From: a bacterium
GTDB lineage: Bacteria; Myxococcota_A; UBA9160; UBA4427
Length of the DNA stretch: 64,000 nucleotides
Direction of reading: 5' to 3'
Assembly (NCBI GenBank): GCA_024742285.1
Contig: JANSYR010000005.1
Span: 62,001-126,000 of the forward strand
Positions 29,111-32,435 of the stretch are shown here, one piece after another. The position numbers and the translations under genes are program-made. How positions within the stretch are numbered: the first letter of the stretch is position 1; each line of letters opens with the position of its first letter. The notes below the pieces were generated by a model. That model was given only the letters and a program-made list of their open reading frames with translations. It had not been told where the DNA came from and did no database searches.

Positions 29111-29230
29111 GGGTCAGGCCGCGGCCTGCTCCGTGGGTCAGGCTTTGGCCTGCGCCGTGGGTCAGGCTTCGGCCTGCGCCGTGGGTCAGGCTTTGGCCTG
29201 CGCCGTGGGTCAGGCCTCGGCCTGCTCCTT
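29111..29230 (-). repeat. Five tandem 24-bp units derived from a gene 3' end
   Basis: Units begin at 29111, 29135, 29159, 29183 and 29207 and differ at a few positions. The last one contains the final six codons and stop of the CMD gene at 29210-29590. Because 24 is a multiple of 3, each further unit repeats the same in-frame ending with its own TGA. Read on, they encode PTAQAKA, PTAQAEA, PTAQAKA and PTEQAAA, each followed by stop. There are no unique spacers, so this is not CRISPR. Confidence 0.88.
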
Positions 29231-29590
29231 GGCGACCTCGGCGATCTTCTCCTCGACGATGCCGATCAGCGCCGCGGCGCGGGGGTAGCCGGAGTACTGC
29301 GCGATCATGAGGAGCAGCTCGCGGACGTCTTCCGGTCTGAGCTCGCCGTTCTTCAGCGCCGCCTTCACCTGGATCCCGAAGGTCATCGCCTCGCCCTTCT
29401 CGGCGATGATACCGAGCAGCAGGATCCGGCGATCACGGATCGACATCACGTCCCGCGCCCACTGCTCGGCGAAGACCTGCTCGAGCATGATGTCGGTGAA
29501 GACATTGCCCTCCGGCGGCGTGACGACGTCTCCCGCGTACACCTTCTTGATCATCTCGAGTCCGCGTTCGCGGCGGGTCTTCTCGGCCAT
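29210..29590 (-). CDS. Carboxymuconolactone decarboxylase (CMD) family protein without cysteines
   Basis: A 126-residue CMD-type protein: ERGLEMIKKVYAGD N-terminus as in gamma-carboxymuconolactone decarboxylase, SIRDRRILLLGIIAEKGEA, and YSGYPRAAALIGIVEEKI. It has no cysteine, so it cannot be an AhpD-type peroxidase; the CMD-type decarboxylase or a related lyase/isomerase role fits better. ATG at 29590 has AGGAGAGAG upstream. It follows the NTF2-like gene by 21 bp. Its last codons and stop are the parent of a tandem repeat extending to 29111. Confidence 0.82.
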   Translation of the reverse strand: MAEKTRRERGLEMIKKVYAGDVVTPPEGNVFTDIMLEQVFAEQWARDVMSIRDRRILLLGIIAEKGEAMTFGIQVKAALKNGELRPEDVRELLLMIAQYSGYPRAAALIGIVEEKIAEVAKEQAEA

Positions 29591-31392: not shown

Positions 31393-31977
31393 CTATCCGG
31401 TTTCGAGGGCGGGGTGCGCCTCCGGCAGCGCGCAGACCGCGCCCTCCGAGAAGCCCTGATCCGCGACGTCGAAGCCGCGGTTGAAGCGCGCGCGGAAGTT
31501 CTCGAGGGCGATCACGCCGGTCAGCTCGACCAGCTGCTCCTCGGAGAAGTGCTCGAGCAGCGTTTCCACCTGCGCGTCCGTGGCCGTCGCCGGCGTCCGG
31601 GTGAGCGCCGCGGTGTAGTCGAGGACGAGCTTCTCGAGCGGATCGAACGCCTCGCTCTCCGCGTGGCGGACGAGGGCGCGCAGCTGCTCTTCGGTGATGC
31701 CTTGTTCTCTGCCGACGGCAGAGTTGATGTCCAGTCAGAACACGCACCCGATCATGGACGCCGCCTTCAGGCACGCCAGGGTCTTCAGCCGGTCGGGGAC
31801 GCTCCGCGCGCGGTCGAGGCTGACCTGGAGGAGTCCCGCTCCCCACATCGTCGGGCTGCTCTTCGCCATGATCCGTAGCGGGTCCGGCACGGCACCGGCC
31901 TCCTTCGCTGCGGCGGCAAAGACGCGCTTCGTCATGAAGCTCGCCTCTTGGTCTCCTACGCCTTCGATCCTCGCCAT
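31393..31977 (-). CDS. AhpD/CMD-family selenoprotein with CxxU active site (UGA at 31735-31737)
   Basis: The frame from ATG 31977 (GAGGAG upstream) reaches UGA at codon 81 and then continues for 113 codons, with normal codon bias, to TAG at 31393. Translation across the UGA gives ASMIGC78-V-F-U81-LDINSA. The UGA thus replaces the second Cys of the CxxC redox motif of AhpD-like proteins, and both sides match the family (downstream DYTAALTRTP and LVELTGVIALENFRARFN). A perfect hairpin at bacterial-SECIS spacing follows. Product is 194 residues including selenocysteine, probably a peroxidase or thiol oxidoreductase. N replaces the usual His after the motif. A disrupted gene is the alternative but is less likely. 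Confidence 0.85.
31707..31723 (-). promoter_or_regulatory. Bacterial SECIS-like hairpin
   Basis: In the mRNA (minus strand) the sequence CUCUGCC-GUC-GGCAGAG begins 11 nt after the UGA. It gives a 7-bp perfect stem with a 3-nt apical loop whose first base is G, 19 nt after the UGA. Bacterial SECIS elements place a small G-containing loop about 16-37 nt after the UGA, for SelB binding. The stem forces TCT and AGA codons, which are unusual in this GC-rich gene set. Confidence 0.8.
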
Positions 31978-32435
31978 CACGTGTCTCCTCTTCGTCTCGG
32001 TCGGTCGAGTCCGTCGTCTTCGCGCGCCCATCGCCAGGCGATCCAGGGGATCGCCACGCCCGGGAAGTAGACGCCGGGCAGGTCGAGGAGCCAGTGGTCG
32101 TGGCCGAGGGCGCCGCGGAGAGTGTCGTAGGCATGCAGTGCGGCGTGCGCGGCGAGGAAGATCGCCGCGACGGACACCAGGGGAACCCGAGCGCGCGGTC
32201 GCCGATCGGCCCAGACCAGTGCGATCCCCGTCGCGAGGAACGCGCAGCCGATGTCGCGTACGAAGTGGGGGTTGAAGGGGCCGGTATCGGGGACCGCTGC
32301 CGGGAGATCGGTGTACCAGTGCATGGGACCGACCAGCATCCAGAGCGCGTTTCCGATCGAGAGGACACCGGTCGCGAGTACGATCCAGGCGAGCGCATCG
32401 CGCTTCGTTTCGTGCCGGGCGTCGAGAGCGTCCAT
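31977..32435 (-). CDS. Small integral membrane protein, four predicted TM segments
   Basis: A 152-residue hydrophobic protein with segments at about residues 15-37, 62-79, 86-103 and 122-136, and a conserved-looking loop MHWYTDLPAAVPDTGPFNPHFVRDIG before TM2. No named family is recognised. Its stop codon shares one base with the ATG of the downstream selenoprotein gene (TGATG), so the two are almost certainly coupled. That suggests a membrane partner or redox substrate for the selenoprotein. ATG at 32435. Confidence 0.75.
   Translation of the reverse strand: MDALDARHETKRDALAWIVLATGVLSIGNALWMLVGPMHWYTDLPAAVPDTGPFNPHFVRDIGCAFLATGIALVWADRRPRARVPLVSVAAIFLAAHAALHAYDTLRGALGHDHWLLDLPGVYFPGVAIPWIAWRWAREDDGLDRPRRRGDT

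Follow-up and report, generated by a model that had tools for sequence, protein, structure and literature searches.

A probable AhpD-like selenoprotein with a CxxU motif and its DUF4345-like membrane-protein neighbor in a Myxococcota_A genome

Organization of the locus

The window, the whole 64,000-nt stretch of DNA analyzed here, carries on its minus strand a gene that almost certainly encodes a selenium-containing redox protein, as judged from its sequence and that of its relatives. The gene, the signals around its in-frame TGA and the adjoining membrane-protein gene are arranged as follows.

31977→31393, minus strand: AhpD/CMD-like selenoprotein gene, 194 codons plus TAG stop
31737-31735, minus strand: in-frame TGA, codon 81, read as selenocysteine (C78-V-F-U81)
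31707..31723, minus strand: SECIS-like hairpin CUCUGCC-GUC-GGCAGAG, 11 nt after the UGA
31984..31990 (approximate), minus strand: Shine-Dalgarno-like AGAGGAG, 5' of the selenoprotein ATG
32435-31977, minus strand: small four-helix membrane protein, DUF4345-like, 152 aa, its stop overlapping the selenoprotein ATG

The selenoprotein frame opens with an ATG at 31977, in the context AGACGAAGAGGAGACACGTG-ATG, and closes with a TAG at 31395-31393, both on the minus strand. An earlier note on this DNA gave the interval 31393-31977 correctly and named no strand; a plus-strand reading of it yields a meaningless translation and was rejected. The codon-81 TGA occupies the place of the second redox Cys of a CxxC motif, as the note had proposed, and read-through gives a product of 194 residues containing GCVF-U-LDINSAVGR, which matches the Pfam CMD family (PF02627) at 37.3 bits against a cut-off of 23. 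Downstream of the TGA the frame stays open for 113 codons. The GC content at third codon positions (GC3) is 0.875 on the 5' side and 0.912 on the 3' side, compared with 0.863 in neighboring genes, so the part beyond the TGA looks coding, with the normal codon bias claimed for it. Ordinary ORF calling ends at the TGA and reports a 98-aa ORF (31735-32031), the truncation that had been foreseen.

The membrane-protein gene overlaps the selenoprotein gene by one base (TGATG), a layout that makes translational coupling of the two genes probable. Its product, predicted to form four helices, contains invariant His/Asp residues and no conserved Cys pair. Pfam returns just weak DUF4345/DoxX_2 matches, with DUF4345 at 21.8 bits and thus below its cut-off of 26.5; eight of 13 homologues match DUF4345 at E<=0.01, and Foldseek finds no solved relative of the window protein (best E 0.37). 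Among the 12 rows closest to the window gene in the tree, nine have a homologue directly upstream, as do at least six Acidimicrobiales/Acidimicrobiia loci and at least three Cys-type genes. The arrangement with a coupled membrane protein, highlighted in the earlier note, is genuine and is conserved by some, not all, of the family, and its occurrence with both selenocysteine (Sec) and Cys versions suggests that the two-gene module predates the Sec/Cys difference.

The neighborhood of the pair includes genes for a luciferase-like monooxygenase and an enoyl-CoA hydratase. A GntR/MocR-like gene, so labeled from its sequence without a family scan, stands beside the pair at L063, L066, L067, L077 and L084 and at the Cys-type loci L053-L055, L057, L059 and L060, mostly upstream on the same strand and, in L077 and L084, downstream on the opposite strand; none was seen adjoining the pair in the window. 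A second CMD gene, PcaC-like and devoid of Cys (29210-29590, minus strand; PF02627, 24 bits), is encoded on that strand too, ~2 kb 3' of the selenoprotein gene and separated from it by SnoaL-like and DegT/DnrJ aminotransferase genes. Its 3' end is overlapped by a tandem repeat (29111-29232; period 24, 5.1 copies, 89% matches), whose units contain in-frame TGA codons on the minus strand past the PcaC-like stop.

Decoding of the codon-81 UGA

The genome (6.55 Mb, 56 contigs, 95% complete) encodes all four components, selA, selB, selC and selD, that the earlier note proposed to search for. tRNA-Sec is the sole match above the Rfam threshold (67.8 bits), and ARAGORN likewise reports a SeC tRNA with anticodon TCA. 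SelA scores 522.9 bits, SelD 259 bits and SelB 283.9 bits, the last comprising a GTPase domain and the winged-helix domains PF09106 and PF09107. SelA is encoded by 75 of 80 genomes from the order, so nearly all of this group uses selenocysteine.

The genome has two more CMD-type genes with a single in-frame TGA, in each case at a CxxU motif. One (L013, G000:C1:195629-195745; CFYU) belongs to NCBIfam NF041238 AhpD_rel_CFYUT (453 bits), and the other (L011, G000:C7:48507-48755; CDTU), which falls under every cut-off tried, may be another unnamed selenoprotein.

Within the 80 genomes of the order, all 20 clade loci, the window included, carry TGA at the codon-81 column, and its recurrence in the 19 further homologues is, on the aligned sequences, far beyond chance. 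In seven more distant homologues from the order, at ~30% identity or below, the corresponding columns read CxxC, and a Cys aligns with U81 in the solved structures PA0269 and Atu0492, which bears out the expectation of Cys at residue 81 in homologues. A scan of ~85,000 species genomes (GTDB) with two degenerate patterns, one (ARFNR) blind to Sec/Cys and the other including CxxC and detecting Cys codons only, yielded 35 relatives, of which 33 contain CxxU. TGA is present in all 34 loci covering the site; the remaining locus, L095, ends short of it, and L076, from a Gemmatimonadetes record, keeps the TGA with a broken frame 5' of it. The order and species-genome sets combined amount to 41 distinct homologous loci with TGA, 40 of them inside CxxU. 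When 284 phylum genomes were searched without any pattern, 17 matches reached E<=1e-22; each contains a TGA and none is a Cys form, its six new loci (L096–L101) counting for TGA presence only, irrespective of position. Since every locus that covers the site carries TGA and no Cys form turned up in the clade, the clade appears to be Sec-only within the sampled genomes. The loci come mostly from metagenome-assembled genomes and keep the phylum labels of their records. In the tree, a single branch of modest support (90/61) parts the Cys rows from the Sec rows, the latter comprising Myxococcota/Deltaproteobacteria, Acidobacteriota, Actinomycetota and Chloroflexota records.

The hairpin downstream of the UGA has a 7-bp stem and a 3-nt GUC loop that begins with G and starts 18 nt after the UGA. 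It fits the bacterial SECIS description of PMC1088965, a small G-containing apical loop directly after the UGA; Rfam at its gathering threshold gives no match within the window. The window hairpin by itself is unexceptional (folding z -0.96; P(7/7)=0.045 by codon chance), so the case rests on family comparison. Because the set of 31 sequences compared was chosen without the Acidimicrobiales, L052 and L090, its counts describe the main group rather than the whole clade. The hairpin is differently placed or weak in the Acidimicrobiales members, has 8 bp and a one-base shift in L052, and is replaced by another hairpin in L090. Across the 31 sequences its position is fixed and compensatory changes are present: pairing holds in 92.2% of cells, against 84.0% in shuffles and no more than 54.8% for a slid stem, 15 cells are doubly changed versus 2.9 in shuffles, and the covariation score is 0.257 versus 0.090 (0/500). 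Compensated stems include CTCGGCC/GGCCGAG, TTCCGC/GCGGAA and ACACTGC/GCAGTGT. Synonymous recoding of the same peptides, in which the window codon table applied to all species is an approximation, forms 3.87±0.22 of 7 pairs versus 6.45 observed (0/4000). The window stem is built with rare codons (TCT, 2.1% of Ser; AGA, 3.5% of Arg).

Selenocysteine is by far the best reading of the codon-81 TGA that these sequences suggest. A pseudogene, or a sequencing or assembly error in which a Cys codon became TGA, has next to no probability: TGA is one base from TGC or TGT and standard ORF calling stops there, but GC3 remains normal after the TGA, a covarying hairpin follows it, and orthologues already refute the idea, as the same-codon TGA recurs in ~40 independent species of several phyla with frames otherwise conserved, which excludes the sequencing error that the earlier note would have checked by resequencing. 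Equally negligible is reassignment of UGA (to Trp or Gly) or its reading by non-specific suppression, for although the frame is open under any code that makes TGA a residue, the upstream membrane gene terminates in TGA, residue 81 aligns with an invariant redox Cys rather than with Trp or Gly, and the genome holds a complete Sec machinery.

Fold, active site and relation to known families

The AlphaFold model of the selenoprotein (pLDDT 92.9, pTM 0.89) adopts an AhpD-like fold. All 37 Foldseek matches in the PDB at E<=0.001 are AhpD-like/CMD proteins, with TM-scores up to about 0.8 over the query; the debrominase Bmp8 ranks first, with PA0269, Atu0492 and several uncharacterized AhpD-like proteins close behind. 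C78, U81 and D83 are invariant in 33 sequences. The proton relay of AhpD comprises a Glu 12 residues before the first Cys and a His four residues after the second (PMC3141380). The corresponding positions are Thr66, with Glu in none of 33 relatives, and Asn85, with His in three of 33. The AhpD label given earlier holds for the superfamily and the CxxU motif; with the canonical Glu and His absent, alkylhydroperoxidase activity is only inferred. The one Cys homologue inspected (L053) likewise lacks the relay residues, so the idea that Sec replaces the relay is not uniquely supported. A further cysteine, C182, within GAxCxxP, is invariant throughout alignment A2 (19 sequences), which represents the subgroup closest to the window gene; Acidimicrobiales and the Cys homologues lack it, and in Dehalococcoidia its position is shifted.

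AhpD-like CxxU selenoproteins (COG2128/YciW; reference protein MCB9421940.1) have been known since 2005 and include 'AhpD-like 1/2' of the Sargasso and GOS surveys (PMC1088965, PMC2398784), so the precedent in marine surveys cited in the earlier note is genuine; PMC9312934 and PMC13188914 list such proteins as well. These families share with the window protein the superfamily, Sec at the second CxxC position and a hairpin after the UGA. They differ in having many Cys homologues (902 for 299 Sec proteins in AhpD-like 1), whereas none was found for the window clade. C182 and the membrane partner are features of the window clade that the accessible survey descriptions do not include; the clade may nonetheless correspond to AhpD-like 1.

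Among curated families, NCBIfam NF053654 GroundWater_YciW ('YciW-related (seleno)protein') gives a near full-length match (residues 1-175, E=6.4e-32) and matches all 33 clade members of alignment A3. The window protein scores 110.7 bits against its curated cut-off of 310 and is therefore not a member, but a relative of named families that do not cover it. TIGR01926 peroxid_rel (34.2 bits, cut-off 81.8) and TIGR00778 ahpD_dom (20.2 bits, cut-off 27.8) also remain below threshold. NF041238, although likewise a CMD-type CxxU selenoprotein family with a member in the same genome, is a different, longer family to which the window protein does not belong. PA0269 and Atu0492 have the same fold as the window protein, and their CxxC lies at the equivalent place (TM up to 0.88 on the target; 27% identity when structurally aligned), but they have Cys for Sec and keep a relay Glu (His in Atu0492) and His (PMC3141380) where the window protein has Thr66 and Asn85. 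Bmp8, a tetrabromopyrrole debrominase, combines the top fold match with a long profile match, yet shares only 20% identity, has CxxC without Sec and performs different chemistry. Literature searches on Bmp8 and NF053654/YciW returned no description of the window clade. The concept of CxxU AhpD-like selenoproteins is known, and the window gene adds a member; less ordinary are the apparent Sec-only state, C182 in the nearest subgroup and the frequent operon with a DUF4345-like gene.

Proposed function and significance

The reading frame, the alignment of TGA with Cys, the hairpin, the Sec machinery and the predicted fold, each established directly, lead us to assign a probability of about 95% to a selenocysteine-containing AhpD-like (COG2128/PF02627) thiol-redox protein whose Sec is inserted via SelB and the hairpin. 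SelB with Sec-tRNA would recognize the hairpin 3' of UGA-81 and insert selenocysteine into a CxxU active site predicted to sit at the N-terminus of helix 79-91. We infer that the U81 selenolate attacks a peroxide or another oxidized or electrophilic substrate and that C78, possibly joined in the window's subgroup by C182, then resolves the product. The resulting selenenylsulfide would be re-reduced by a thiol reductant of the cell. The low pKa of Sec would spare the classical AhpD Glu/His relay, and the co-translated DUF4345-like protein probably tethers the enzyme or supplies a membrane-borne substrate. The likeliest role is thus that of a Sec-dependent thiol-redox enzyme whose substrate is a peroxide or some other electrophile and which may work at the membrane.

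A second possibility, less favored but worth weighing, is that the selenoprotein serves mainly as a thiol-disulfide adaptor reducing AhpC, or as a membrane-linked reductant for its DUF4345-like partner, rather than as a direct peroxidase. M. tuberculosis AhpD serves AhpC as an adaptor (PMC3141380) and the operon link to the membrane protein is strong, but no ahpC was identified in the window neighborhood and the partner's cysteine content, described above, offers no conserved pair. Dehalogenation is improbable: here a Bmp8-like selenoprotein with no peroxidase role would attack halogenated aromatics through its selenolate, as deiodinases do. The best Foldseek matches are Bmp8 entries (6ohj/6ohi), the family profile aligns to most of the Bmp8 sequence (76 bits), the monooxygenase and hydratase genes lie nearby, and the peroxidase proton relay is missing. 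Against this, uncharacterized AhpD-like proteins match the profile equally (Atu0492, 81 bits), 2prr and 6k40 equal Bmp8 in TM-score, the identity to Bmp8 is low, and no halogen-related gene was identified in the vicinity.

Returning to the Sec-dependent thiol-redox enzyme, a bolder extension, which we consider doubtful, would make the clade an obligately Sec branch: a membrane-tethered two-protein module with the DUF4345-like partner and C182 as an extra resolving residue, with no reversion to Cys in four or more phyla because its chemistry (e.g., lipid hydroperoxide reduction or reductive dehalogenation) requires selenium.

The gene is prone to truncation or a pseudogene call, and no tested NCBIfam model covers it above its curated cut-off, even though it occurs widely among uncultivated Myxococcota, Acidobacteria, Actinomycetota and Chloroflexi. 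Three features merit further work: the apparent Sec-only state, C182 and the membrane partner. The pairing with a membrane protein in both Sec and Cys versions provides a concrete lead to DUF4345-like function, and an apparently Sec-only clade is well suited to studying why certain enzymes are unable to dispense with selenium.
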